A stretch of 64,000 bases of DNA from Chitinophagales bacterium (lineage in GTDB: Bacteria > Bacteroidota > Bacteroidia > Chitinophagales > Chitinophagaceae). Position 1 is the stretch's first letter. The number at the start of each line of letters is the position of its first letter. Made by a program: the position numbers and the translations under genes. Shown here piece after piece: positions 3,948-15,554 of this stretch. The DNA is taken from positions 2,356,001 to 2,420,000 of the forward strand of contig JAFLBI010000001.1 in the NCBI GenBank assembly GCA_017303835.1. The letters are read 5' to 3'. The notes under the pieces are model-generated. The model worked only from the letters and a program-made list of their open reading frames with translations. It ran no database searches and was not told where the DNA came from.

Positions 3948-5189
3948 TTAAAATACAAGAGGGAAAATAAAACAAACAATTGCTACCCACACCGCATAAA
4001 CAGGCAAAAAAGAAACAATGGTTTTTAGCAATGTTTGCTGTGAGCCCGTTTCGCGCAACTGACGATACAGCTGCTCACAGATCATAATCAGGTGGATGAG
4101 CAATAAGAGATTTGCACCCAACACCGCTAAACGATTTGCACTAAAACCCCATTGGCTAATTCTGAAAACAATTGCGGACAGCGCAATGGTGTTGACCAAT
4201 ATGGTTGTAGTGGCCAACAGGGTTAATAACCAAGCATTCCATTTTTTTAATTGAGCAGTATTGTTCTCTGCAGCAATAAAAAAGATGATCAGCATCACGC
4301 CCAATAAAACAACATTAAAGAGTAGTAAGAACTCGCGATCGTTATAAGGATCTTTTCCAACAAACAACATACTACCTATATATAACCAAAGAATCAATAA
4401 TACAACAGGCCCAAACAGATTAGCCAATACCGGCGTAATCTTTCCTGCGAGGTTGGGATTGTTTTCATTCAGGTAGGCTGCAATAATGGGCACAGCAGGC
4501 AAACCAAATGGCAGTATGTTTTGAAAATACCAATCACCAATTTTAATACCCAGTAATTCAAACAGACCAACTGTAACACCGGTAACCATTCCGCCAGCTA
4601 TCAGGATTAATCCGGATAAGAGCAGCAAGTTTCCATTCAAACGTAAATAAGCCAAGCGGTCTGCGCGACCATCCTGTCTGAATACAAAAGCAAGCAATAA
4701 CCAAAGTAATATGGGCAAGTGAATACTGATGAGTATTTGTGTCTGGCTATTCTTGGTTACCCATTCATTCAATACAAAAGCAAAGAGATATGCGCCGCCA
4801 ACCAATAACCATTGTTGTTTTGGTATGGATTGCTTGTAAGCAAAATAGGCCAACAAAAAAGGAAAGACCAGAAAGCCAATATGCTGTTGGTACCATTCCG
4901 GCTGTTGGTCGCCAATTAACCAAAACAAGGGTAATCTTGCTGCAAAGCCCGCCAGCATACTTAATGCCAAGACCAATATCCATTCTGATTTCTGCCCAAA
5001 TGTAATCAAGCTTTCCTTGGTATACTGCAATCTTGCTTGCCAAAATGCTGCAGCACTTGTTTGTGCGATGGAGGGATACATTGTTTGGAATGCATTTGTA
5101 AATTGTTTTGGGGAGTCGCGATACAATTGCTCCAGCTTCTCAGGCTGATCAATATTTGCGCGTATCTCTTGTGTGAGTTGTTGTTCCAT
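3948..5189 (-). CDS. Multipass membrane protein, possibly DUF4153-like
   Basis: 413 residues. A soluble N-terminal segment of about 75 residues is followed by roughly ten hydrophobic segments. The stretch DPYNDREFLLLFNVVLLGVM near residue 300 resembles blocks of DUF4153-type membrane proteins, but the match is from memory and tentative. It lies 50 bp downstream of the winged-helix regulator gene and probably belongs to the same transcript (membrane protein 5539-6147, regulator, this protein). The unit ends at the strong hairpin at 3905-3930. The function is unknown. Confidence 0.6.
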   Translation of the reverse strand: MEQQLTQEIRANIDQPEKLEQLYRDSPKQFTNAFQTMYPSIAQTSAAAFWQARLQYTKESLITFGQKSEWILVLALSMLAGFAARLPLFWLIGDQQPEWYQQHIGFLVFPFLLAYFAYKQSIPKQQWLLVGGAYLFAFVLNEWVTKNSQTQILISIHLPILLWLLLAFVFRQDGRADRLAYLRLNGNLLLLSGLILIAGGMVTGVTVGLFELLGIKIGDWYFQNILPFGLPAVPIIAAYLNENNPNLAGKITPVLANLFGPVVLLILWLYIGSMLFVGKDPYNDREFLLLFNVVLLGVMLIIFFIAAENNTAQLKKWNAWLLTLLATTTILVNTIALSAIVFRISQWGFSANRLAVLGANLLLLIHLIMICEQLYRQLRETGSQQTLLKTIVSFLPVYAVWVAIVCFIFPLVF

Positions 5190-5239
5190 AATGTTTATTT
5201 AAAAGAACTTTGAATTACAAAGTATTTGGGTAAAAAAAT

Positions 5240-5539
5240 TTATTGTTGTGTTTTAATGAGTTTTTCCAAGGCCTTCAGGTGTAGCTCAAATGCTTTTCTG
5301 CCGGCGCGGGTTACTTCATATTTAGTATTTGGTTTTTTATCAATGAATGATTTTTTTGCCACGATGTATTGTTCTCTTTCTAATGCTTTAATATGACTGG
5401 CCAGGTTTCCATCGGTTAAGTTGAGCAATGTCTTCAATGAATTAAAATCCAACGCATCATTTACAGACAGTGCACTCATGATACCCAATCGGATACGATG
5501 ATCAAAAGCCTTATATAATCCGTCAATAGAAATCTCCAT
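5240..5539 (-). CDS. Winged-helix transcriptional regulator (HTH_34-like)
   Basis: 99 residues from the ATG at 5537-5539 (MEISIDGLYKAFDHRIRLGI). It has the pattern of the short winged-helix family used in Bacteroidota: FDHRIRLGIMSAL, a recognition region LTDGNLASHIKALE near residue 45, and a wing with KPNTKYEVTRAGRKAF. Its start overlaps the stop of the upstream membrane-protein gene (TAATG), which is translational coupling. An in-frame extension to 5629 would run into that gene and is rejected. It probably controls its own membrane-protein operon. Confidence 0.8.
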   Translation of the reverse strand: MEISIDGLYKAFDHRIRLGIMSALSVNDALDFNSLKTLLNLTDGNLASHIKALEREQYIVAKKSFIDKKPNTKYEVTRAGRKAFELHLKALEKLIKTQQ

Positions 5540-6147
5540 TACTTGTGCCGAATATGCATATAGATGCCGTAAATAATATGTAATACGCCAAAGCCTATTG
5601 CCCAGAATATGAGTGCGGAAGGAATCCAATACAATCCCAATAAGCCCAACAGTATTTGTAAAAGGCCCAAGCTCTTCACTTCTGCATAGGTGTATTTTCC
5701 CGCCATAAACAAGGCAATACCGTAGAAGATTTGTGTAATGGGCGCTAATAAACCAATCCAGCCTTTATCCAAGGCAATCAAGGCAAACAAACCACCCGCA
5801 ACCAAAGGCACCGCCATCTGCATCACCAATTGTTTGGCTGCCGGTGTAAAAAAGGGTTCGCCATTTCTGGTTGCTTTCTGCAAGGAAAAATAGACTGCCG
5901 TTGCAATGGCCAACAATAAAACCAGCACCGCTACAAGCAATAGCGCTCCTGTATTTGTTTGTGCATCTGTATCTGTAATTGCCTTGGGCGCAAAACCCAA
6001 TAATTGATGCACAATATAGACACCGGCTAATGCATAGACACCAGCCAGCGCACCGGTTCCTCCGGAGAGGGAAAGGAATTTGGAAGACCTTTCCATCATG
6101 GATCGGATCTCGGCAATATCCCTGAGTGCGTCCTTTTCTTCCTTCAT
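5539..6147 (-). CDS. Membrane protein coupled to the winged-helix regulator
   Basis: 202 residues. A short charged N-terminus (MKEEKDALRDIAEIRSMMERSS) is followed by about five membrane segments. I do not recognise a named domain. The same arrangement, a small membrane protein overlapping a 100-residue winged-helix regulator, recurs in Bacteroidota. It is the first gene of the operon; its stop TAA overlaps the regulator's ATG by one base. The role is unknown. Confidence 0.65.
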   Translation of the reverse strand: MKEEKDALRDIAEIRSMMERSSKFLSLSGGTGALAGVYALAGVYIVHQLLGFAPKAITDTDAQTNTGALLLVAVLVLLLAIATAVYFSLQKATRNGEPFFTPAAKQLVMQMAVPLVAGGLFALIALDKGWIGLLAPITQIFYGIALFMAGKYTYAEVKSLGLLQILLGLLGLYWIPSALIFWAIGFGVLHIIYGIYMHIRHK

Positions 6148-6207
6148 TAAGTACTTTTAAATTCAAAGTAAGTGTATCTTTTTGTATTGGCCAAGTTTTA
6201 TTGAGCT

Positions 6208-6283
6208 GTTGCGCGTAAAATGGATGAGTGGGAAATTGGGTTTACGGCTTTATGTTCATGTGGGTTTTTCGGCCGCACGCAAC
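6208..6283. repeat. Weak inverted repeat at the distal edge of the cassette array
   Basis: GTTGCGCG (6208-6215) and CACGCAAC (6276-6283) form 7/8 complementary arms about 60 bp apart, downstream of the FISUMP gene. The position is where a sixth cassette site would be expected. It lacks the central motif of sites A-E, and its ends do not complement the start of cassette 6 (GTTATTTCCGG). It could be a decayed site or chance. Confidence 0.2.
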
Positions 6284-6311
6284 TCTGTAATCAATTCATT
6301 ATGATGAAAGC

Positions 6312-6977
6312 CTACTCCTTTATACAACGAACAGCATAACCATCGCTGGCAAATGTTTCCCAAAAGGTTGACACCTTATCACTTTTAAAATTCAATGAGT
6401 ATGCAATCAACTCGAATGACCGAGCAATTCTGGTGCTGCTCCACCATACACAGATGCTACCGTTTCTTGAAAAGCCATTGTTTGTAGTAATCATGGCAAA
6501 TTCACGGGACCCGCTGGGTAACGCATTAAACCCATTATAATTAGTGCCATTTCCATTATCTCTCCATCCATTGGTGCTTTTAAGTTTAACACCGGCAACT
6601 TGCTTTCCGCCCAAGGTTTTAAAGAGCTGTTCCCAATCATCAGAACTGGGTATCTTCCAATTTTTTGGCGCCAGTCCTCTCGGGTCGCGTATAGCATAAT
6701 AATTATACAATTTACCATACGTTGAGTCATAGCCCTTGTCGTTATTAAAATAGCACCACGCGGGTTGTTTTTTACCAAGAAAAGCCTTCCACTCACTTAT
6801 CGTTTTAGCCTCTGGTATTGTGTCGCCATTTTTGAATGTGCTGACATGTAGGTTTTCACTCATCCATGTTTGATTACCAATAACTACTTCCTTATAGGAA
6901 GCAGTTTCGTCATGATGCATCCACGAGGTTAACATCAGAGAAACAATAATGACGGAACTTATAATCAGTTCTTTCAT
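6312..6977 (-). CDS. FISUMP-domain exported protein
   Basis: 221 residues with an N-terminal hydrophobic signal or anchor (KELIISSVIIVSLML). The rest is one Fibrobacter succinogenes major paralogous (FISUMP, TIGR02145) domain. Visible family blocks are the VVIGNQTWMSENL opening, YGKLYNYYA, LAPKNWKIPSSDDW, NYNGFNALPSGSR, WWSST and the ending GYAVRCIKE. Such domains occur in surface lipoproteins of Bacteroidota; the function is unknown. No lipobox Cys is present. It sits 31 bp after the distal end of site A, like the other cassette genes, but no clear 3' site follows it, so it is either the last, decayed cassette or a resident gene. Confidence 0.8.
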   Translation of the reverse strand: MKELIISSVIIVSLMLTSWMHHDETASYKEVVIGNQTWMSENLHVSTFKNGDTIPEAKTISEWKAFLGKKQPAWCYFNNDKGYDSTYGKLYNYYAIRDPRGLAPKNWKIPSSDDWEQLFKTLGGKQVAGVKLKSTNGWRDNGNGTNYNGFNALPSGSREFAMITTNNGFSRNGSICVWWSSTRIARSFELIAYSLNFKSDKVSTFWETFASDGYAVRCIKE

Positions 6978-7003
6978 TTTATTTTTTTTCTTGTTTACCG
7001 GAA

Positions 7004-7162
7004 ATAACCAGCGTTTGCGTTGGTTGGATAATCCTTTTGCCCACTGCTGGCTTGGCCACTAAAGCCCCGATTGGTTAAAGCCAAATTACTGAAGTTGATT
7101 AGTTCAACCAAGGCTGATGAGCCAGTGCCGAAAGCCAAACAGGCGTAAAGCCTATCGTTAAC
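7004..7162 (-). repeat. Cassette site A (attC-like inverted repeat)
   Basis: Imperfect inverted repeat of about 159 bp between the FISUMP gene and parE. The outer arms read AACCAGCGTTTGCGTTGG at 7006-7023 against the complement of the right end up to GTTAAC at 7157-7162. It carries the central motif TTACTGAAGTTGATT at 7086-7100, shared with site E (TTACTAAAGTTCATT). It begins 7 bp after the parE stop. The right end GTTAACTGTGGTTTT complements the start of its own cassette at 7775-7789 (12 of 15). Confidence 0.6.
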
Positions 7163-7169
7163 TGTGGTT

Positions 7170-7469
7170 TTACTCTTGTATCCTGTTTTTCAAATCCATT
7201 TGTGCATGCAAGATTCTAGCTATTTCAACTTTACCCGGGCTCAGCTTTCTATAGAAAAGTATGTGCTGCCCGGCTTTAAATCCTACAATTTCTGCACTTA
7301 TCTCTGGATAATTTTTGCCTAAAACCTTACCATCAGCTATGTCTTGACAAGAATCTAATAACATGAAATAATATTTGTCAGCTTGTCTCTCTGACCAGGT
7401 ATCAACTGTATATTCCCAAATTGATGATAAATCTTGAACTGCTTTATTTGTTAAAGAGTAACTACCCAT
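7170..7469 (-). CDS. parE: ParE/RelE-family toxin (cassette 5)
   Basis: 99 residues, the usual length for ParE. The fold's landmarks are visible: N-terminal SLTNKAVQDLSSIWEYT, AGQHILFYRK in the middle strand, and the C-terminal VEIARILHAQMDLKNRI. ParE toxins poison DNA gyrase, while related RelE toxins cleave mRNA; the pairing with a ParD-type antitoxin favours ParE. The start overlaps the end of parD by 8 bp, the normal antitoxin-first order. It lies inside cassette 5 of the array and ends 7 bp before site A. Cassette-borne toxin-antitoxin pairs are known to stabilise integron arrays, and the same may apply here. Confidence 0.85.
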   Translation of the reverse strand: MGSYSLTNKAVQDLSSIWEYTVDTWSERQADKYYFMLLDSCQDIADGKVLGKNYPEISAEIVGFKAGQHILFYRKLSPGKVEIARILHAQMDLKNRIQE

Positions 7470-7713
7470 TTTTTTTTCTAGCAGCTTTTAATTTTTCAAG
7501 ATGCTTTTTAGGGTCGAAACTTCTAGCCACACCACTTTCAATACCATCTGTTATCGCTTTTTTGAGTGCTTGAATTTTTGATTCTTCCTCTTCTAAAAGC
7601 CTAAGACCCGCTCTTATTACTTCACTAGCATTCTTAAATCTTCCTGTTGAAACTTTGTCATCAACGAAATCTTCAAAGTGATCCCCTAATGAAATGGATG
7701 TATTGCGTCCCAT
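7462..7713 (-). CDS. parD: ParD-type antitoxin (cassette 5)
   Basis: 83 residues, ribbon-helix-helix type. The N-terminal GRNTSISLGDHFEDFVDDKVSTG strand and helix and the block FKNASEVIRAGLRLLEEEE are diagnostic. The C-terminal part wraps the toxin. It is similar to the second ParD at 14200-14460, so the two modules are paralogues. It is probably autoregulated through the palindrome TACCAAA-a-TTTGGTA at 7735-7749, 22 bp upstream of the start. Confidence 0.87.
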   Translation of the reverse strand: MGRNTSISLGDHFEDFVDDKVSTGRFKNASEVIRAGLRLLEEEESKIQALKKAITDGIESGVARSFDPKKHLEKLKAARKKNG

Positions 7714-7734
7714 TAATGCATGTTTAAGCTAATG

Positions 7735-7749
7735 TACCAAAATTTGGTA
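7735..7749. promoter_or_regulatory. Putative ParD operator 1
   Basis: Perfect palindrome TACCAAA (7735-7741), one base, TTTGGTA (7743-7749), upstream of parD. The core TACCAA-N3-TTGGTA is identical to that in front of the second parD (14482-14496), which supports a conserved ribbon-helix-helix operator. Confidence 0.6.
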
Positions 7750-7783
7750 ACATTTCGCATTTCAGTGGGGTTAAAAAATTACA

Positions 7784-7982
7784 GCTAACGAGCAGGTATT
7801 GCCGATGGTGGGGCTACTGCGTTTCGTCATGCTTGAACTGATTTTAAATATAGTTACTAATGTTGATTGTGATTACAAAAGATGAGCAGCGTTCTGTCGA
7901 GCTGGTGACGAAAGGAAAATAGTAGTACAAATGTTGAGATTTATTCTGTCAACCCCCAATATTGCCAAACCTTTTGTTGTAG
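7784..7982 (-). repeat. Cassette site B (attC-like inverted repeat)
   Basis: 199 bp from GCTAAC (7784-7789) to GTTGTAGGC (7974-7982). The arms GGTATTGCCGATGGTGGGG (left) and the complement of CCCCCAATATTGCCAAACC (right) pair imperfectly. The central motif TTACTAATGTTGATT is at 7854-7868, and the segment at 7930-7945 (GTTGAGATTTATTC) also occurs in site C. It starts 9 bp after the stop of the 172-residue gene. The right end GTTGTAGGCAGGCTT complements the start of its own cassette at 8514-8528 (14 of 15). Confidence 0.7.
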
Positions 7983-7991
7983 GCAGGCTTT

Positions 7992-8510
7992 TTAATCTAA
8001 ATACATCTCTATTTCTTCTTTGATACGTCTTCTCAATCTTTCTGTCCCGCCAAAGTCAATAAAACCGCCATCTGTACTTCCATGTCCTTGCACACTAAAA
8101 CAAACTTGTTTTTCGTCATAATACAAGTGAATGTCAAAACTTGACAACCAAAAGCTTTTTTGGTAGCGAAATAAGTAGTAATTGTCATTAAAGCCATAAG
8201 GTGTCGAGCCAAAGTTTACAATTGTATTTTTCAGTGCTTCTTTTTTGTCGTCTAAAGATTTTAAACTGTCAATAGTGATGATTTTAAAACGATTAGGTAA
8301 TTTATAGAGTCCATATGTACCCATCAAAAACAAAAAAGTGAAGCAGGAATAATGAAATGTATGGTTTCCCTTGAATTTGTCTGGCTTTGTAATTAAGAAG
8401 AAAAGTAAAGTAAGACTTAAAGCGATTGTTAGAATACAAAGTCCGAAATACCAGTATCTGTCAAACCAGTTTTTCTTTTTTATTCGCTCTTCAAATTTTT
8501 GGTATGTCAT
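7992..8510 (-). CDS. Hypothetical membrane-anchored protein (cassette 4)
   Basis: 172 residues from the ATG at 8508-8510 (MTYQKFEERIKKKNWFDRYW). The longer frame to 8573 would run through site C and is rejected. Two membrane segments lie near residues 20-40 and 55-72, followed by a soluble domain of about 95 residues with a FDIHLYYDEKQVCFSVQGHGS strand pair. I recognise no family. The sequence is visibly more AT-rich than the core genes nearby. It is the only gene of its cassette, 18 bp from the cassette start and 9 bp from the site after it. Confidence 0.6.
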   Translation of the reverse strand: MTYQKFEERIKKKNWFDRYWYFGLCILTIALSLTLLFFLITKPDKFKGNHTFHYSCFTFLFLMGTYGLYKLPNRFKIITIDSLKSLDDKKEALKNTIVNFGSTPYGFNDNYYLFRYQKSFWLSSFDIHLYYDEKQVCFSVQGHGSTDGGFIDFGGTERLRRRIKEEIEMYLD

Positions 8511-8519
8511 TTTAAGCTT

Positions 8520-8716
8520 GCCTACAACGAGCAGGGCTTTATGCAGGTTGGGAATTGTTATCCGTCCGCCCACAACCGCTGCTGATTAAAAATATAAAGT
8601 TGAATTTAAGAACTAAAGTTGAGATTTATTCGTCCAGCCCGAACCACAGCCTGGGTTTGCAATTTGCTGATGTTTGCTGGTCATGCCCAACTTGCATAAA
8701 ACCCAATGTTGGTGGC
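8520..8716 (-). repeat. Cassette site C (attC-like inverted repeat)
   Basis: 197 bp from GCCTACAAC (8520-8528) to GTTGGTGGC (8708-8716). The inner arms GGCTTTATGCAGGTTGGG and the complement of the right arm, GGTTTTATGCAAGTTGGG, match 16 of 18. The central motif AACTAAAGTTGAGATT is at 8611-8626. It begins 10 bp after the stop of the Ntn hydrolase. The right end GTTGGTGGCAGTTTT complements the start of its own cassette at 10174-10188 (14 of 15). Confidence 0.75.
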
Positions 8717-8726
8717 AGTTTTTCAC

Positions 8727-10139
8727 TCACCATACATAAAGTTTTGAATAAATTTTGGGTCCTGTCCCAATGTGCATAAAGTTTTTACTGTCTGCCAAAT
8801 ACTGGTCGTTTACTAAGAACTTGTATGTGTTTTCGCCCTTTGGTAAAGTAACTTCACAAGTCCAATAACCATTTTCCTTTTTCATTTTGATTGGATGCTT
8901 TGTCCATTCTGTAAAGTCACCCATTACTGAAACTTGTTGTGCATCTTCAAAATCTGCCAACTTAAAAATAACTTTTTGATTTTCTTGTCTGCCCCAAAGG
9001 GTGGCTAAATAGTCATTTGGTTTTTGCTCTAAAACATTTGAAAAATATTTATTGCTTTCGTTAATGTTGTTAGCCTTTCTGTTTGCCACGCCTAACCAAG
9101 AGAAAATATTGGTATTATTTGGGTCAAATTCTTTTAGACATTCTAATAGCTTTATTGCATCATGGGGTTGTCCTTTCTCAATCCAACTTATTGCAAGGTT
9201 TATTGCATCGTCATTCTTAAAATTGTATTTGTCAAAAGATGTTTTTCGTAATGTCTTGTACTGTTCAATAGCTGAGTTGATGCCATTGCTTTTATATGTT
9301 TTTTCAAGGATGTTGGTAATACTTGCAGGAAAATAATATTGAATGTCTTTGTGATGTTTTCCTTTTTTTAGTTCTTCTGATAATGCTAAGGTTGAAACTG
9401 TTGTAAAATCATTTTTGTAGTATAAATAAATTGTGCTTGTCTTTAAATTAACTGCCATTGAATAATTTGAGATTAAATTATTAGGAAGTTTTTGAGTTGA
9501 TTTTTCTAAAATATTTGTGATGTCATTTAATTGAAAACTTGTAGTTGAATTTAAGTAATGAGTGGCTACATCTCTTCTATGGCAGGCTTCTTTGTGTCCA
9601 TTATTGATGCAGTAATTTGTCAATGCAAAATTGTTGTCTGTCTTCCGAACAATGTAACCACCTGTAACAGTTGCATAATTTCCACTTGCATCACCTATGA
9701 ATAATTGTACATTTAGAAGTTTTATCAAGTTGTATTTGTTCAGGTATAATAATGCGTCTTCAACTGTCTTACAATTTATAAGCAAGTCGGTTACTACTTG
9801 CTTTTTCCTGTCTTTCTTTTGTTCGTCCTTTACTGCTGTAATTTCATCTATTGCAGTATAATCTAAAAAAAGTCCAAATTCATTTAATCCTCCTTGTGGA
9901 TTTAGTTTATTTAGGAATTTTATTTTTATGTTTAAGTCTGTCCAAATTGTGTAGCCATAACTATTTTTTTGTGCAGGATAATACCACATTCTATACTTTG
10001 TATTTTGAAGTTCATCTTCATTGTTTCCAATCCAAACGTTCTTTCCATCATTCGCCATAAAAATGGTACAGGCATTTACAATAAATGTATTTGTCAACAC
10101 AAAGCATAGCAAAACTGTCTTAAAGATTTTATATATCAT
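8727..10139 (-). CDS. Secreted Ntn (choloylglycine/acyl-amide) hydrolase with TPR and CBM48-like domains (cassette 3)
   Basis: 470 residues from the ATG at 10137-10139. The signal peptide (MIYKIFKTVLLCFVLTNTFI) ends right before Cys in NA-CTIFMAND. The Cys exposed by cleavage is the expected N-terminal nucleophile of linear amide C-N hydrolases (penicillin V acylase/bile-salt hydrolase superfamily), supported by WIGNNED and GGLNEFGLFLDY. TPR-like helices follow near residues 330-395. The last 80 residues form an E-set/CBM48-like domain (VSVMGDFTEWTKHPIKM, ENTYKFLVNDQYLADS). The substrate is unknown. The frame extends to 10310 through site D, but that part is not coding. It is the largest cassette gene and is AT-rich relative to the core. 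Confidence 0.75.
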   Translation of the reverse strand: MIYKIFKTVLLCFVLTNTFIVNACTIFMANDGKNVWIGNNEDELQNTKYRMWYYPAQKNSYGYTIWTDLNIKIKFLNKLNPQGGLNEFGLFLDYTAIDEITAVKDEQKKDRKKQVVTDLLINCKTVEDALLYLNKYNLIKLLNVQLFIGDASGNYATVTGGYIVRKTDNNFALTNYCINNGHKEACHRRDVATHYLNSTTSFQLNDITNILEKSTQKLPNNLISNYSMAVNLKTSTIYLYYKNDFTTVSTLALSEELKKGKHHKDIQYYFPASITNILEKTYKSNGINSAIEQYKTLRKTSFDKYNFKNDDAINLAISWIEKGQPHDAIKLLECLKEFDPNNTNIFSWLGVANRKANNINESNKYFSNVLEQKPNDYLATLWGRQENQKVIFKLADFEDAQQVSVMGDFTEWTKHPIKMKKENGYWTCEVTLPKGENTYKFLVNDQYLADSKNFMHIGTGPKIYSKLYVW

Positions 10140-10179
10140 TTTATGTCTGTTGAATTTGTGTAGGGTACTCAATAAAATT

Positions 10180-10378
10180 GCCACCAACGGTTCAGCGTTT
10201 GCGATGGGCTGGCAATAGCGATTGGTCAGCCTGGTACAAATGCTTAATTGAAAAACTAAAAGTTGAAAATATAAAACATAAGCCGAATAGCAAAGGTCAA
10301 GCTGGAACAACTATTGATGCTTGCAAAAATGCTGAGAACTTAATGTCGAGCCAGCCTATTGCAAACGCACCTGTTAGC
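10180..10378 (-). repeat. Cassette site D (attC-like inverted repeat)
   Basis: 199 bp from GCCACCAAC (10180-10188) to GTTAGC (10373-10378). The arms GCGTTTGCGATGGGCTGGC (10194-10212) and the complement of the right arm, GCGTTTGCAATAGGCTGGC, match 17 of 19. The central motif, AACTAAAAGTTGAAAAT, lies near 10254-10270. It begins 12 bp after the stop of the 178-residue gene. The right end GTTAGCTGTA complements the start of its own cassette at 10963-10972 (10 of 10). Confidence 0.75.
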
Positions 10379-10390
10379 TGTACACCCAAG

Positions 10391-10927
10391 TCAGGCATGA
10401 GGAGGTGTCCTTTTAATTGTACTCAGAACTTTGTACCAGCCGTTGCCTAAGCTGTCAACCGAAACTGTTTCTTCATCTGTCACAAGTGTTTGGCAATCGC
10501 AAACACAATTGTCATTGTAAACCAAGATTAAAGTCTGCCATTTGTTTACAAGAAAATAATTATTAAATGAATGTTTTAGTATAAAACGAATACACTTTGG
10601 TCGGTCAATGTCTATTTGGATTACTTGACCTTTTGAAAATAGGCTTTTGATTTTTTCTCTTTCAGCATTTGTCAAAAAAGAAAATAAACTGTCAACAGCA
10701 TTTGCATTCATATAACCATAAGCGTCAATTTTTGCTAAAGGTGAAAATACAGTTGTACTGTCTTGCGGAATTTTGTCTTTATTGTTTGTCAAAATTTGCT
10801 GAACAGATTTAATGTCTGCGAAGGTGTCTTTATTAATAGTTGTGTCGCTTATTGACGTTGGGAATCCAATGACAACAATTGCGATAATGACTGCAATTGC
10901 AATAGTTGTCCATAAGAATATTTTCAA
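10391..10927 (-). CDS. Hypothetical protein with N-terminal membrane anchor (cassette 2)
   Basis: 178 residues. The frame has no early ATG and apparently starts with TTG at 10927, giving KIFLWTTIAIAVIIAIVVIG as a membrane anchor or signal. The remainder is soluble, with a conserved-looking NCVCDCQTLV segment near residue 140 holding three clustered Cys. I recognise no family. Low GC, single gene in its cassette, 45 bp after the cassette start and 12 bp before site D. Confidence 0.5.
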   Translation of the reverse strand: MKIFLWTTIAIAVIIAIVVIGFPTSISDTTINKDTFADIKSVQQILTNNKDKIPQDSTTVFSPLAKIDAYGYMNANAVDSLFSFLTNAEREKIKSLFSKGQVIQIDIDRPKCIRFILKHSFNNYFLVNKWQTLILVYNDNCVCDCQTLVTDEETVSVDSLGNGWYKVLSTIKRTPPHA

Positions 10928-10966
10928 ACCTTTTTCAAATATTAAGATGTGTCAAAATGGGTTACA

Positions 10967-11096
10967 GCTAACGTTTTCGGGCTTTGCGTTCGGGCGGGTT
11001 TCGGAGCACAAAGTTTCAAATTATTACTAAAGTTCATTAGAGGCACAAAGCCCCAAGTTTGCACGTCAGCCCGCCTGACGCAAAACCCGTGTTAGC
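10967..11096 (-). repeat. Cassette site E (attC-like inverted repeat)
   Basis: 130 bp from GCTAAC (10967-10972) to GTTAGC (11091-11096). The arms CGGGCTTTGCGTTCGGGCGGG and the complement of the right arm, CGGGTTTTGCGTCAGGCGGG, are nearly identical. The central motif TTACTAAAGTTCATT is at 11024-11038. It begins 9 bp after the stop of the gene at 11105. The right end GTTAGCGGTTGTTTT complements the start of its own cassette at 11704-11718 (14 of 15). Confidence 0.78.
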
Positions 11097-11104
11097 GGTT
11101 GTTT

Positions 11105-11461
11105 TTATTCTTTCAATTCTGCTGTCCACTTAATTTGTCCACCTTTTTCACTACAAATTTCAAGTCCACCCATACCATAATCATAGCCCAATGAATATTC
11201 AACTTGTCGATATTTGATAAAGTCTGAAAGCTCTTGAGAAACAGCAATCATCTTATTGAATAAATCCTTTGTTTCGTTAAGTTCTGCTAGAGCTTTGTCC
11301 TTTGATAAATTTTTTAACTCATTGCAAACTGTCCAGCCTGTTACAGTAAAATGTTTGCCGTCTTTGCACCCAAAAGTCAAGTCACCAACTTTGAAAGGGT
11401 GTCCGTCTTGCAGTAAAACAATAGCATTTTTTATGCGATGAATTAGTTCTTCTTCGTTCAT
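11105..11461 (-). CDS. Hypothetical protein (cassette 1, second gene)
   Basis: 118 residues, cytosolic, mostly helical, starting MNEEELIHRIKNAIVLL; no motif recognised. Its ATG overlaps the stop of the upstream 81-residue gene by 4 bp, so the two form a small two-gene unit within cassette 1. The overlap and the sizes are reminiscent of toxin-antitoxin or toxin-immunity pairs, but no residue supports that. It ends 9 bp before site E. Confidence 0.55.
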   Translation of the reverse strand: MNEEELIHRIKNAIVLLQDGHPFKVGDLTFGCKDGKHFTVTGWTVCNELKNLSKDKALAELNETKDLFNKMIAVSQELSDFIKYRQVEYSLGYDYGMGGLEICSEKGGQIKWTAELKE

Positions 11462-11703
11462 TGTCTGTCAATAATTTCTGTGTCCAACAACATTAGGGAT
11501 TGTTGCAATCCTTCGTCAACCAGATTTCCTCTAACAGTTATTTCTAATTTGTCCGAAAGCATTTTCTCGTCAGACTTGTTTTTGAACAAGGCTGTAATCT
11601 GTCTCGTAACACCATTATACTCAATCTCAGTTGAAATGTAATGATGTCCACCGTCAGCACCAGTCGATAATACGTTATAATTTGTCAGTTTGAGTGTCGT
11701 CAT
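11458..11703 (-). CDS. Small hypothetical protein (cassette 1, first gene)
   Basis: 81 residues from the ATG at 11701-11703 (MTTLKLTNYNVLSTGADGG). The longer frame to 11778 crosses the attI-like end and is rejected. No family is recognised; it is probably a beta-rich small domain. The start codon lies only 9 bp from the end of the GTTAGC core of the recombination end at 11713-11718, so expression probably depends on a promoter upstream of that end, as for first cassettes in integrons. Confidence 0.5.
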   Translation of the reverse strand: MTTLKLTNYNVLSTGADGGHHYISTEIEYNGVTRQITALFKNKSDEKMLSDKLEITVRGNLVDEGLQQSLMLLDTEIIDRQ

Positions 11704-11712
11704 AAAATAACC

Positions 11713-11718
11713 GCTAAC
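11713..11718 (-). other. attI-like recombination end (start of cassette 1)
   Basis: On the minus strand GTTAGCGGTTATTTT begins here and matches the end of site E. To its right (towards the recombinase) there is no paired inverted-repeat arm, unlike sites A-E. This is the layout of an integron attI/first-cassette junction. The region 11719-11914 contains no gene; it holds the palindrome at 11833-11878 and presumably the promoter for cassette 1. Confidence 0.5.
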
Positions 11719-11832
11719 TCTAAAATATGCGAAAGTTTTGAGATAATAAAGACTTGTGCAATCTGCCAGAAACAGCAAAAAATCAACGCCTTATAAAAAA
11801 GTGTGGGTGTTTTATGGCAGTAGCGCAATTGC

Positions 11833-11878
11833 AACCGATTAAATTTATTTAAACGTTTATAAGCGTTTAAAATCGGTT
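11833..11878. repeat. Nested palindrome between recombinase operon and array
   Basis: TTTAAACG (11848-11855), 8-bp spacer, CGTTTAAA (11864-11871), with outer arms AACCGATT (11833-11840) and AATCGGTT (11871-11878). The inner repeat has the size of a tyrosine-recombinase core or a dimeric repressor site. It could be the recombinase's own attachment core, an operator for the XRE protein encoded next to it, or a terminator of that operon. Confidence 0.5.
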
Positions 11879-11914
11879 ACTATTTCGTTATGATATCCAA
11901 TTCAGTTTCCTGAT

Positions 11915-12433
11915 TTATACAATCTTTAACGCGATCTTTCTAGATAAACCCAATTCCACAATTTTATACAGTGTATGCAACTCGGGCTCAATCAAATCAT
12001 TTTCCACCCGAGAAATATAGGCCTTACTGGTGCCGCTCTTTTGCGCCAGTGCATCCTGCGATAAACCCTGTGCCTTTCTTGCCCTTCGTATGGCCGCGCC
12101 TAATAAAAACCGCTTTTGTGCAATTGGCTCACTATGCTCAAACAATACTACCGGGTCTATCGCATATGGTTTTTGCATTTCATTTCCACCCATATCTGTA
12201 ATCCTTAACAAAATATTCGGCCAACTCAGGGTTTGCTCAATTAGCTTTAACCGTTTAAACTGTTGCACATCCAGCAATGGATATTCAGGATCTGTTTTCT
12301 TTATCCGCCATTGTTTGAAGAGCCGCGCAAAATCAATGCGCCTGGTTTCTCCATTGTTAAACACACAAACCACCTCAAACCCCTTTACAGAAACCAGTTT
12401 TAAGATGCGTGGTATTTTATTGGCTCTTTTCAT
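11915..12433 (-). CDS. DUF2442-like plus XRE-family HTH protein
   Basis: 172 residues. The N-terminal half (VSVKGFEVVCVFNNGETRRIDFARLF, then ITDMGGNEMQKPYAIDPVVLF) resembles DUF2442. Residues about 112-165 form an XRE/HTH_3 domain (GAAIRRARKAQGLSQDALAQKSGTS with KAYISRVEND). DUF2442 proteins are typically encoded beside DUF4160 proteins as toxin-antitoxin-like pairs, and here the antitoxin-like part is fused to a DNA-binding domain. Its ATG overlaps the stop of the DUF4160 gene (ATGA), and it is the last gene of the recombinase operon. It may repress its own operon, possibly including the recombinase. Confidence 0.75.
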   Translation of the reverse strand: MKRANKIPRILKLVSVKGFEVVCVFNNGETRRIDFARLFKQWRIKKTDPEYPLLDVQQFKRLKLIEQTLSWPNILLRITDMGGNEMQKPYAIDPVVLFEHSEPIAQKRFLLGAAIRRARKAQGLSQDALAQKSGTSKAYISRVENDLIEPELHTLYKIVELGLSRKIALKIV

Positions 12434-12675
12434 TTTTTTAAACCCGGGTTTAGCTCATAAAAATTCTGTAACAACCATGCCGTTCTACCATCTTCTTTCA
12501 TCCACTTTCTGCATTTCCGTAGTACCGAAACCGGAAGATGTCCGGCAAGGATAGCACCTGATTGTATTTCCAACAGCGCTTCATCTCCACCATACCGTAG
12601 ATGTATATGTGGCGGTAAATGATCACGACTGTATACCTCCACTTTAATTCCCTCAAACAAATGCAAGGTAGGCAT
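12430..12675 (-). CDS. DUF4160 family protein
   Basis: 81 residues from the ATG at 12673-12675 (MPTLHLFEGIKVEVYSRDHL). The family pattern is clear: HLPPHIHLRYGGDEALLEIQSGAILAG, followed by a helical tail. DUF4160 proteins occur with DUF2442 partners in modules thought to be toxin-antitoxin-like; the activity is unproven. The start follows the recombinase stop by a single base, and the end overlaps the next gene by 4 bp, so the three genes form one tightly coupled operon. Confidence 0.8.
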   Translation of the reverse strand: MPTLHLFEGIKVEVYSRDHLPPHIHLRYGGDEALLEIQSGAILAGHLPVSVLRKCRKWMKEDGRTAWLLQNFYELNPGLKK

Positions 12676-12676
12676 T

Positions 12677-13810
12677 TTAGTAATTTTTGTTGCCGAATTT
12701 GGTAACAAAATTCAGGTGTAGATCATCCAGCGGACTAACCACTTTCAATAAATCCTTATTGGTGGTATGGAGATAACGTAAGGTGGTCTTGATATCCTGA
12801 TGGCCAAGCAGCTTTTGAATGATGCTGATATCTGTGCCCTTATCCAGCAAGTGTGTGGCAAAACTATGCCTCAATGCATGTATTGACCCGTCCTTACATA
12901 TACCTGCTTTCCGCTTTGCCTCCTGTAAAACAATTTGCAGCGATCTGGTACTATAGGGTGTGCCCGGCTCCTGCCCAGCAAACAAATACCCTTGTTTATC
13001 TGGGCGGTACTGTCTGGCATACGCACGCAAAATCACCAATAGTACCGGACTTAATTGAACCAATCTGTCTTTCTTTCCTTTGGCTCTTTCTACCAATATA
13101 CACCTGCGGTCTGGCATAATATTGGCCGTCTTTATACTCACCACTTCACTCACCCGCATACCGGTACTATAACAAAGCATCAGCATGGCCTTATGTTTGA
13201 TGTTTTGTACCACCTGTATAATGCGCACCACTTCATCTTGAGAAAAAAAACGCGGAATCTGTAGTGGTTTTTTTGGCCTCGGTATCTCCCATAAAAATCT
13301 TGGTCTATGCAATACCTGCTCAAAATAAAATTTGATCGCATTAAGCCGGCTGTGTAAGGTGTTTTCAGAAAGGCCCAATTCAACGGCGCAATAAAGCATA
13401 TACCTGCGCAAGTGTTCTGGCTGCAAGTCTTCCACCGGTACATCACCCAACTTCATGAGTAACTGGGTAAACTCATTTCGGTATGTCGTAATCGTGGATC
13501 TGGAATATTTTTTTAAAATCAACTGCTCTACTATCCGCTTCAACTGCAACAAATTTTTCTCGCTAATCCTTGTTCGTTGTTGCGGCAATGCCCGTATTGT
13601 TGGTTCTGCTGTTGTTTCAGCATCCGGCATTAACCCAACCATTCGGCGGTTCTCCGGCGTATCCGGAATATGCCAAGCACCATGGGTTTTACTCCACCGA
13701 GCATCCGCTATACCGCGAATACGTTTATTCCAGCTACTCTTTGTTGAAAAGCGCAACAAGATTCTGTGTGCGCCCCTGTGTTCAATAATTTGTGCAATAG
13801 TTTCCTCCAT
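12677..13810 (-). CDS. Tyrosine recombinase (Xer/phage-integrase type), candidate cassette recombinase
   Basis: 377 residues from the ATG at 13808-13810. An N-terminal domain of about 80 residues (SSWNKRIRGIADARWSKTHGAWHIP) is typical of Bacteroidota integrases. A SAM-like core-binding domain follows (YSRSTITTYRNEFTQLL), then the catalytic domain with the full set of residues: Arg in TGMRVSE, Lys in AKGKKDR, HALRHSFATHLL, LLGHQDIKTT and Tyr in LRYLHTT. The ending VVSPLDDL resembles the SPLDAL end of IntI1, but the additional IntI segment before HxLR seems absent. It leads an operon with the DUF4160 and XRE genes and lies next to the cassette array, which makes it the obvious candidate to move the cassettes. 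This link is inference. Confidence 0.88.
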   Translation of the reverse strand: MEETIAQIIEHRGAHRILLRFSTKSSWNKRIRGIADARWSKTHGAWHIPDTPENRRMVGLMPDAETTAEPTIRALPQQRTRISEKNLLQLKRIVEQLILKKYSRSTITTYRNEFTQLLMKLGDVPVEDLQPEHLRRYMLYCAVELGLSENTLHSRLNAIKFYFEQVLHRPRFLWEIPRPKKPLQIPRFFSQDEVVRIIQVVQNIKHKAMLMLCYSTGMRVSEVVSIKTANIMPDRRCILVERAKGKKDRLVQLSPVLLVILRAYARQYRPDKQGYLFAGQEPGTPYSTRSLQIVLQEAKRKAGICKDGSIHALRHSFATHLLDKGTDISIIQKLLGHQDIKTTLRYLHTTNKDLLKVVSPLDDLHLNFVTKFGNKNY

Positions 13811-13891
13811 AAGCAAGGTTTTGCTTCATCAGAGGTTACTGATACGAATATACTAAACCGGCTTAGTTATATAATTCAGATAGACATGTTT

Positions 13892-13912
13892 TACCCAATT
13901 AACACCGCCGCC
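13892..13912. repeat. Copy of the nadA 3' end (direct repeat, left)
   Basis: The 21 bases from 13892 match 14548-14568, inside the last codons of nadA, at 19 positions. The copies are in direct orientation and flank the second parDE module. It may be the mark of integration at the nadA 3' end. Confidence 0.45.
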
Positions 13913-13916
13913 CGAT

Positions 13917-14216
13917 TCAATCATTCAACCGATTTTCAATATCCATGCTTTGGTGTAAAATCCTGATGACTTCAATTTCAGTTTTACTGTCTATTGCTCG
14001 GTAAAAAATAACATGCGACTTTACTTTAGCAGAGCGATAGTTTTTTCGAATATGGCTGCAATCCTTTCCTGATGCAGGATGGTTTGCCAGGTATTCAATT
14101 TCGTCGATGATCAAATTAATATATCTATCCGCCTGTGCTAATGACCAGTTCTCAACAGTGTACAACCAAATCTGCTCAATATCTTCAGCAGCTTTAACAC
14201 TAAGTTGATAACCCAT
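13917..14216 (-). CDS. parE: ParE/RelE-family toxin 2
   Basis: 99 residues, same family as the toxin at 7170-7469 and clearly related to it: KAAEDIEQIWLYTVENWSLAQADRY, then VKSHVIFYRAID and EVIRILHQSMDIENRL. The predicted role is gyrase poisoning, held in check by the ParD encoded upstream. The start overlaps the end of parD2 by 17 bp. The module lies between the recombinase operon and nadA, outside the recognised cassette sites, and is flanked by a 21-bp direct repeat. Confidence 0.85.
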   Translation of the reverse strand: MGYQLSVKAAEDIEQIWLYTVENWSLAQADRYINLIIDEIEYLANHPASGKDCSHIRKNYRSAKVKSHVIFYRAIDSKTEIEVIRILHQSMDIENRLND

Positions 14217-14460
14217 TGGTCAAATGTTGATCATGCAAGTTTTTGAGGAATTTTTTTCGGTCAAAGTTTTGTACAAAACCCGACTGCTCACCCTTTTTCA
14301 ATTCCTTGATTAAGGCATTTTTTTGATTTTCTTCTTGTTCAAAAAGACGTAAAGCTGCGCGTACAACTTCACTAGCAGAAGAGAAACGGCCACTTTGTAC
14401 CTGATGGTTGATAAAATTATCAAAGTAATCTCCCAATAAAATGGAGGTGTTCTTAGCCAT
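14200..14460 (-). CDS. parD: ParD-type antitoxin 2
   Basis: 86 residues from the ATG at 14458-14460 (MAKNTSILLGDYFDNFINHQ). Ribbon-helix-helix N-terminus and the diagnostic FSSASEVVRAALRLFEQEE block; paralogue of the ParD at 7462-7713. An in-frame start at 14487 would place the operator inside the gene and is rejected. It is probably autoregulated through the palindrome at 14480-14498. Confidence 0.87.
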   Translation of the reverse strand: MAKNTSILLGDYFDNFINHQVQSGRFSSASEVVRAALRLFEQEENQKNALIKELKKGEQSGFVQNFDRKKFLKNLHDQHLTNGLST

Positions 14461-14479
14461 AACTACAACTTTGATCGAA

Positions 14480-14498
14480 TATACCAATTCTTGGTATA
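14480..14498. promoter_or_regulatory. Putative ParD operator 2
   Basis: Perfect palindrome TATACCAA (14480-14487), ttc, TTGGTATA (14491-14498), 20 bp upstream of parD2. It shares the TACCAA-N3-TTGGTA core with the first parDE operator. Confidence 0.6.
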
Positions 14499-14546
14499 TA
14501 CAACAAGTTTACAGCAGCGTTTTCCTGTGTTTAACTTTTTAAATAT

Positions 14547-15554
14547 CTACCCAATCAACCCCGCCGCCTTACTAATCTCCAGCATTCGGTCCATAGGTTT
14601 CTTGGCAGCTAATCTGAGTGATTCATCCATGATAATCTCCGGCAGCTCATATTCCATGCACAGATAGATTTTCTCCAAGGTGTTGAGCTTCATGTGCGGA
14701 CAGTCATTACAAGCACAATTGTTATTGGGTGGGGCGGGTATAAAAGTCTTGTTCGGACTTTCCTGTTGCATCTGGTGCAGAATACCCGTTTCAGTAGCCA
14801 CAATAAAGCTCGTGGCTTCGTTGATCTGGGTATACTTGAGTAATTGGGTGGTGCTGCCAATGAAGTCGGCCTGGGCCAGCACAGCCTCCTCACACTCGGG
14901 GTGGGCAATAAATTTCGCTTCCGGGTGACGGATTTTCAGCTTGGTGATCTTTTCCAGACTAAAAATCTCATGGACCATACAAGCGCCATTCCAGAGCAAC
15001 ATATTGCGGCCGGTAACCTTATTCAGCCAGGCACCCAGGTTTTTATCCGGCGCGAAAATGATGGGTTGATCGGCTGGCAGACTGTCGATAATGGCTTTTG
15101 CATTGCTGCTGGTGCAGATAATATCGCTTTCCGCCTTAATATCGGCTGTACAGTTGATATAGCTTACCACCAAATGATCAGGGTGTTTGGCCTTGAATGC
15201 CCGAAATTGGTCAACCGGTGCTGAATCTGCCAAAGAACAGCCGGCTTTCAGGTCGGGCAGGAGTACTTTTTTGGTTGGGTTTACAATCTTGGCGGTCTCA
15301 GCCATAAAGTGCACGCCGGCAAACACAATAATATCCGCATCGGTCTGGGCCGCTTTCTGGGCAAGGCCCAGGCTATCGCCGATATAATCGGCCACATCCT
15401 GGATATCAGGCTCCTGGTAATAGTGCGCCAGCAGAATCGCATTTTTTTCTTTTTTCAGACGCTCAATCTCGGCAAATAAATCCAATCGAACATCAATATC
15501 CTGATCTAAAAATCCTTTTGTTGCTAATGCCTGCTTCGCTGCCAAAATGTTCAT
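14547..15554 (-). CDS. nadA: Quinolinate synthase
   Basis: 335 residues from the ATG at 15552-15554. Condenses iminoaspartate with dihydroxyacetone phosphate to quinolinate in de novo NAD synthesis, using a 4Fe-4S cluster. Family blocks are visible: [66 protein letters not shown] and the C-terminal [19 protein letters not shown] region with the Cys ligands. The family's three conserved Cys appear present. It is the last minus-strand gene before the putative origin and stands alone; no nadB or nadC is in the window. Its last codons are duplicated at 13892-13912. Confidence 0.96.
14548..14568. repeat. nadA 3' end copy (direct repeat, right)
   Basis: Partner of the repeat at 13892-13912; 19 of 21 identical, inside the last codons and stop of nadA. 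Confidence 0.45.

Follow-up and report, generated by a model that had tools for sequence, protein, structure and literature searches.

In classical integrons the integrase often reads divergently from the cassette array. The pdif modules of Acinetobacter are bounded by 28-bp duplex XerC/XerD sites and lack hairpins, an attI and a linked recombinase. Searches for integrons rely on models of IntI and of the classical attC site (PMC9024848; this and the other sources below are cited from the available parts of their texts). Bacteroidota are named in lists of integron carriers (PMC9668308, PMC8618304) and, in the available part of PMC8352920, are not among the 11 taxa for which attC models are given. 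The locus described here lies in a 64,000-nucleotide (nt) stretch of a Chitinophagales bacterium (family Chitinophagaceae; GenBank assembly GCA_017303835.1, contig JAFLBI010000001.1, positions 2,356,001–2,420,000 of the forward strand), hereafter the window, whose own positions are used throughout. It is very probably a cassette array of integron-like type: a tyrosine recombinase that lacks the IntI-specific insert (12677–13816) is predicted, from the sequence, to place circular cassettes at an attI-like point at 11718. An initial annotation, made from the letters alone, had placed five inverted-repeat sites, A–E, on the minus strand, alternating with units of one or two genes, and had proposed that the array is integron-like and that its tyrosine recombinase lacks the IntI segment. 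The sites lie close to where it put them, and the proposal held in a model search, in the loci of recombinase homologues and in a comparison with a sister species. The insertion point, which it had left unmarked, was added by the follow-up analysis.

Like integrons, the system has G^TT-bounded cassettes; hairpin sites, in which R boxes and unpaired spacers accompany a variable tip; an attI-like point adjoining the recombinase; long arrays; clusters lacking an integrase; and resistance cassettes. Unlike integrons, it has a recombinase that lacks the IntI insert, branches apart and reads in the direction of the array, an attI-like motif of its own, and sites that are mostly 124–205 nt long. Like pdif modules, it comprises small units, often carrying toxin-antitoxin or resistance genes, apparently moved by a tyrosine recombinase system; unlike them, it has hairpin sites, an attI-like point and a linked recombinase. 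Sites without a recombinase, comparable with the CALIN and In0 fragments of IntegronFinder (PMC9024848), also occur.

Each cassette of the window runs from one G^TT to the next (Table 1), as in integrons in the broad sense. The last bases of each site (R', beginning at G^TT) agree with the first bases (R'') of the following site, not with those of their own: the start of cassette 1 (GTTAGCGGTT) is partnered by E, the end of E (GTTAGCTGTA) by D, that of D (GTTGGTGGCAATTTT) by C, that of C (GTTGTAGGCAAGCTT) by B and that of B (GTTAGCTGT) by A. This is the pattern expected if each cassette was a one-site circle opened at G^TT, as in integrons. Agreement at six or more of nine positions was seen in 217/257 consecutive pairs of a large array in another genome (G411, described below), compared with 35/296 same-site and 28/293 random pairs, and in 48/64 consecutive pairs from other loci, compared with 15/107 same-site pairs. 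Site ends are cassette-specific, reading GTTR, free bases and then often G(C/T), as opposed to the GTTRRRY core of classical attC, which was present in 0/6 window junctions, 26/297 G411 sites and 6/107 sites of 36 loci. The initial annotation was right that these ends are non-classical, but they do not fall into the two fixed types that it had proposed. C directly precedes G^TT in 295/297 G411 sites.

Simple hairpin scans either missed sites A and B or gave false matches in coding sequence, and for this reason covariance models were used in their place. The short-site model (R1) was built from 17 short sites, to which the window contributed E only (alignment A4: 16 of 21 listed short sites, plus E); the long-site model (R2) was built from 30 rows (alignment A5: 27 of 72 long sites, 50 of which were listed, plus B, C and D of the window). 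R1 recovered D, C and B at the E-values given in Table 1. Site A escaped both models, R1 at E 0.05 and R2 at E 0.01. Cassette 5, including most of site A, has 88% identity over 743 nt to a cassette from another genus (G413) in which the site is intact, and site A is therefore taken to be real, with a decayed 3' arm. The central motif TTACTAAAGTTGATT, assigned beforehand to all five sites, can be clearly recognised in A, B and E, less so in C and D.

The arms of the sites form a 19-pair stem in A5, with 92.3% of 535 cells paired. Doubly changed cells numbered 140, compared with 52 in shuffles, and covariation was 0.596 compared with 0.164 (0/500 shuffles); when one arm was slid by 1–3 columns the signal collapsed, to 35–47% paired, an advantage due in part to the stem having been read off the same A5 rows. 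RNAalifold, run independently, returned an almost identical stem together with YAAC/GTTR pairing. The sites therefore share with integron sites in the broad sense a hairpin with paired arms, an unpaired spacer, a variable tip and, as the covariation indicates, structure conserved over sequence. One A.C mismatch, nearly constant, interrupts the middle of the stem, and R is separated from the stem by unpaired spacers of unequal length on the two sides; these features are reminiscent of attC, which has extrahelical bases and a central spacer and, in most sites, a G next to AAC on the bottom strand (PMC2727003). Of 99 G411 sites sampled, 82 folded better as the bottom strand and 16 as the top strand. 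Site lengths range overall from about 80 to 205 nt; a short class of ~80 nt adjoins the same recombinase family (L099 13711–14319, L102 11472–13932, L110 3934–4019).

Insertion is predicted to occur at the G at 11718, which lies between a toxin-antitoxin-like pair and cassette 1, 197 bases from the antitoxin-like gene. A sister species of the same genus (G001), with a recombinase 100% identical to that of the window, is collinear with it as far as GTTAG at 11718, after which the sequences part; on its contig C10, a site at the contig start is followed, shortly past its G^TT, by the flank that begins at window 6243 (86% identity). Both flanks are thus common to the two species and the sequence between them differs, so that the cassette array, window 6243–11718, is a variable region that appears, at sequence level, to have been replaced in nature. 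G001 is split into contigs, and its array is visible only in part. A fixed gene order among relatives, named in the initial annotation as a finding that would speak against cassettes, was not what this comparison gave.

Upstream of the first junction a motif is conserved in 25 aligned rows, with C at -13 in 25/25 and both A at -8 and T at -7 in 24/25, against a background of 0.04–0.24 bit per column at 207 other GTT positions. The rows comprise 23 of the 36 loci with scanned sites (a match of at least 7 within 400 bases was required), the window and G001; the last two are near-identical, and one row (L112) resembles an overlooked site instead. This motif points to an attI-type insertion point beside the presumed integrase, another property of integrons in the broad sense.

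The recombinase matched the Pfam families Phage_integrase (1e-39) and Phage_int_SAM_4, and scored below the cut-offs of NF040815 (189.6 bits, cut-off 220) and TIGR02249 (164.3 bits, cut-off 265). Residues R221, K246, H313, R316, H339 and Y348, which from knowledge of the family we take to be catalytic, are invariant in a 16-row alignment (A3) that excludes P0004 and P0071 as possible chimeras. The N-terminal half of P0004 is like that of the window recombinase and its C-terminal half is different, and P0071-like; it is either a natural recombination or an assembly chimera. The distance from the lysine motif to the H-LRHSFA motif was 64–68 residues in 92 array-type proteins versus 106 in 15 canonical IntI rows (it could not be measured in one further array-type protein, from G411, and two canonical IntI rows), and the window's own genome encodes two other recombinases in which it was 68 and 72. 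The array recombinases lack the IntI-specific insert near patch III: alignment to the IntI4 structure is interrupted between query residues 264 and 293 (chain 178 and 247), and in many of the listed relatives the match to TIGR02249 is confined to about 2–179 and 239–315. A quick tree of 65 rows (including 34 array-type proteins from the 80 loci described below, 12 others and the window), whose branch support is solely the Shimodaira–Hasegawa-like approximate likelihood ratio test (SH-aLRT), put IntI (16 rows, SH-aLRT 99) and the array type (47 rows, SH-aLRT 89) in separate groups, with long outgroup branches, and the array recombinases outside the IntI clade. XerA was the best match in the PDB, with IntI4 among the closest solved structures after it. 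The recombinase resembles XerA, XerC and XerD in having a core and a SAM-like domain with no insert, but differs from them in about 85 extra N-terminal residues and in its linked cassette arrays. The system probably works like an integron and, by the tests of insert, clade and site core, is not an IntI integron.

Genomes were scanned with a profile of the recombinase alignment, and the best 80 of 216 loci encoding a relative were analysed. R2 gave 144 matches in these loci, 142 of them downstream of the recombinase and on its strand (27 being training rows; the two exceptions are in L057 and L104), although the loci offered 260 kb of downstream sequence versus 630 kb upstream. Arrays beside homologues of the recombinase had been anticipated in the initial annotation. 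At least one R2 site was present in 42/80 loci: in 25/26 of those with ≥3 kb downstream, in 36/40 with ≥1.5 kb and in 0/22 with <500 bases. The sole long-downstream locus without one (L110) has an 86-nt hairpin site found by an earlier scan. The contig ends ≤2 kb downstream of the recombinase in 42/80 loci and upstream in 7/80, and repeat arrays could be the cause of the downstream breaks. Sites were also present in nine of ten loci from other families with an insert-less recombinase (L241–L250; none in L250), a set that serves as a check and not as a sample because eight of the ten were chosen for sites listed nearby.

The largest array was found in G411, a genome with one contig of 4.27 Mb and at least 150 R1 matches. 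All 158 R1 matches at E 1e-5 between 3.74 and 4.02 Mb are on one strand, and plus-strand R1 matches between 3.46 and 3.74 Mb (E 0.01) echo the same minus-strand palindromes more weakly. The two models together gave 352 non-overlapping sites on one strand over 507 kb (junctions 3475295 to 3982375), compared with five on the opposite strand, found by the short model alone; requiring AAC/GTT and a length of 100–215 nt cut the 352 to 313 and then 297. A minus-strand recombinase had been forecast immediately above 3.982 Mb, and one was located at 3985825–3986793, 46% identical. Cassettes appear to be duplicated as units: of 432 pairs ≥90% identical, there are 229 in which identity ends 3 or 4 bases into the next junction, and 115 in which it starts one base ahead of the cassette's own junction. 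The largest cluster (L208 and neighbours, 3.46–3.98 Mb) has 54 members at ≥90%, most near 660 bp; 51 cassettes of 640–680 bp gave 993 aligned pairs with a median identity of 87.6% and a minimum of 80%. One copy, when translated, showed no long sense frame and a longer antisense one, so the cluster is possibly a gene-less cassette amplified inside one array. To survey the cargo of G411, 70 of 116 open reading frames (near-copies removed) were scanned; they gave 27 families, each with at most two members.

In the mechanism that we infer, the adjacent recombinase would recombine the hairpin-forming attC-like site of each cassette with the attI-like site. As the integrases of classical integrons do, it would act on the folded bottom strand, presumably cleaving at G^TT. 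New cassettes would enter beside attI and would be expressed from upstream; Bacteroidota promoters differ from the sigma-70 type, the only type used in the promoter scan.

Could the locus nevertheless be an integron of the ordinary kind, whose integrase is a true IntI, though divergent, and whose attC sites are classical? The overall design is alike, TIGR02249 is matched at 164 bits, IntI4 follows XerA in structural closeness, and both GTTR and the C before G^TT are common to classical attC; we nonetheless judge this unlikely, given the missing insert, the relatives that match TIGR02249 only in two parts, the separation of IntI and array types in the tree and the scarcity of GTTRRRY. Moreover, R1 found 0 sites in six canonical-IntI loci, and R1 sites, present in 110/247 genomes of the phylum, are rarer in IntI-positive (21/70) than in IntI-negative ones (89/177), a comparison confounded by phylogeny. 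Scanned strictly for classical attC, neither the six canonical-IntI loci nor the window array gave a match, a result of little weight as there was no classical control model. The abundance of R1 sites in the phylum would also suit palindromic repeats resembling repetitive extragenic palindromes or miniature inverted-repeat transposable elements, spread by other means with the recombinase a bystander, as would the 14 R1 sites of the window's own genome, of which 4 are inside the window and 10 outside it, partly in same-strand clusters. Repeats scattered without cassettes had been named in the initial annotation as evidence against an array; sites do occur outside the window, and the one cluster examined, of three sites (L164), proved to be same-strand cassettes with R'/R'' agreement of 8/9 twice. 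That such repeats explain the locus is highly improbable, since nearly all R2 matches in the 80 loci share one strand and the downstream side, a motif is conserved at the first junction, junction-bounded units are duplicated, and R' and R'' agree within a cassette, whereas within a single site their agreement is no better than chance.

We give just as little credence to the idea that the cassettes are real but are moved by the host XerC/XerD, in the fashion of pdif modules, and not by the adjacent recombinase. The genome does encode two further relatives of the recombinase, and tet(X14) has been reported beside xerD (PMC7473080), but the sites here are hairpins of 80–205 nt with a separate attI-like site, and the arrays start at this recombinase family. 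Several observations sit less well with an integron-like system run by that recombinase. Two of the five shuffle measures for the stem (pairs with double change, further pair types) were no higher than in shuffles, site E folded alone was no better than shuffles (z -1.33), and 40/257 consecutive R'/R'' pairs in G411 agree at fewer than six places. The AlphaFold model of the recombinase is of moderate confidence, and the insert itself is not fully conserved in an integron-like subgroup, according to the available part of PMC8138268. Sites occur away from the recombinase, as the ten in its own genome illustrate. Duplicated G411 cassettes have less sharp 5' than 3' ends, many reaching 16–31 or more bases into the preceding site and some into neighbours. 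That assembly is 93% complete, with 5% contamination and 1298 masked bases, and only 146/257 of its cassettes have an open reading frame of ≥50 amino acids (the others being shorter or containing N), the longest being antisense in 28/146; the array may for these reasons hold errors or decay. Finally, a search with 99 cassettes (loci and window) gave only 3 matches between cassettes or loci, so that movement between species rests on few cases.

DNA of the array matches 191/394 genomes of the family, mainly through its sites. Canonical IntI scored above cut-off in 1/195 genomes of the family and 70/247 from the phylum, only one of the 70 (G052) belonging to the class of the window. Sites also accompany resistance genes on plasmids. 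The tet(X)-linked site was found in 15/72,556 plasmid records, 13 at ≥95%, its carriers being Empedobacter, Bacteroides, Riemerella, Sphingobacterium, Myroides and Proteus, with weaker matches in Adhaeribacter and one Empedobacter. Four plasmids (Empedobacter, Proteus, Bacteroides and Riemerella) have, after tet(X), a site whose R'' is the same in all and then, from G^TT onwards, four different sequences; no matching R' was found upstream of tet(X) in the Proteus plasmid. A site likewise follows aadS in the Bacteroides and Riemerella plasmids of these four, with differing sequences beyond, and lnu(H) of the Empedobacter plasmid is flanked by two matched sites. A Chryseobacterium plasmid encodes a recombinase 37.6% identical to that of the window, with same-strand sites downstream.

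The system is likely to be a second, so far unrecognised kind of integron, one that would allow genes, resistance genes among them, to be captured and shuffled across Bacteroidota. We also think it probable that this IntI-independent lineage is widespread in the phylum, with arrays reaching about 350 sites and half a megabase, and that it is the hidden vehicle by which tet(X), lnu(H), aadS and other pathogen genes became mobile cassettes; on this reading, either integrons predate the IntI insert or the capture of hairpin cassettes arose twice. No description of such a system was found in the full-text literature, a search that most subscription papers and all bioRxiv preprints lay outside. In the available parts of two reports, xerD stands beside tet(X) or catB with the integron unrecognised (PMC7473080, PMC11194056), the former stating that no predicted integron was found at the tet(X)/xerD region, and in that of PMC8565304 the word integron appears only in a cited reference. 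A large gene-capture system in a phylum common in soil, water and gut would escape searches based on IntI and attC. It suggests how tet(X) and other resistance genes may spread, makes it testable whether hairpin recombination needs the IntI insert, and could give tools for gene delivery in Bacteroidota.

Table 1. Features of the predicted cassette array and its surroundings, in window positions.
Feature	Position	Strand	Details
parDE pair	13917–14487	-	Directly upstream of recombinase, outside cassette array
Tyrosine recombinase, predicted integron integrase without IntI insert	12677–13816	-	Pfam, NCBIfam matches
DUF4160/DhiT-like toxin-like gene	12430–12708	-	Between recombinase and attI-like site; family searches; also in G001
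HTH antitoxin-like gene	11915–12433	-	Between recombinase and attI-like site; family searches; also in G001
attI-like site	11718–11763	-	Junction G^TT at 11718/11717; AACTTTCGCATATTTTAGA just before junction
Cassette 1	10972–11717	-	Genes 11458–11703 (ATG chosen by analyst) and 11105–11461, no Pfam or NCBIfam family matched; terminal site E
Site E, attC-like, short class	10961–11102	-	R1 134.1 bits, but training row of R1
Cassette 2	10188–10971	-	Gene 10391–10927, no Pfam or NCBIfam family matched; terminal site D
Site D, attC-like, long class	10177–10384	-	R1 E 2.5e-10; R2 145 bits (training row of R2)
Cassette 3	8528–10187	-	Gene 8727–10139; terminal site C
Site C, attC-like, long class	8517–8719	-	R1 E 3.7e-7; R2 183 bits (training row of R2)
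Cassette 4	7789–8527	-	Gene 7992–8510, no Pfam or NCBIfam family matched; terminal site B
Site B, attC-like, long class	7778–7987	-	R1 E 1.3e-6; R2 122 bits (training row of R2)
Cassette 5	7008–7788	-	ParD antitoxin 7462–7713 and ParE toxin 7170–7469; terminal site A
Site A, attC-like, decayed 3' arm	7000–7167	-	Comparison with G413 cassette
FISUMP-domain gene	6312–6977	-	Inside variable region
Distal end of variable region	6243	.	Start of flank common to sister species G001 (86%)

From 14487 down to 6312 all annotated genes are on the minus strand, in the order parDE, recombinase, DUF4160/HTH pair and then the gene units parted by sites E, D, C, B and A. The DUF4160/DhiT-like and HTH pair (11915–12708), present in both sister species, might act as a stabiliser of the array. 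The C-terminal part of the cassette 3 product is carbohydrate-binding-like (AMPK1_CBM/CBM48). No intact site was seen after the FISUMP-domain gene on inspection of the variable region, and Rfam matched nothing in window 5000–15000 at E 1. The array of the Chryseobacterium plasmid includes an ltrA gene (L259 21753–23069), and the start of the G413 parDE cassette is preceded by an apparent group II intron end (L163, about 7390–7470, reverse strand). Group IIC introns target attC, and by analogy introns may target the sites of these arrays.

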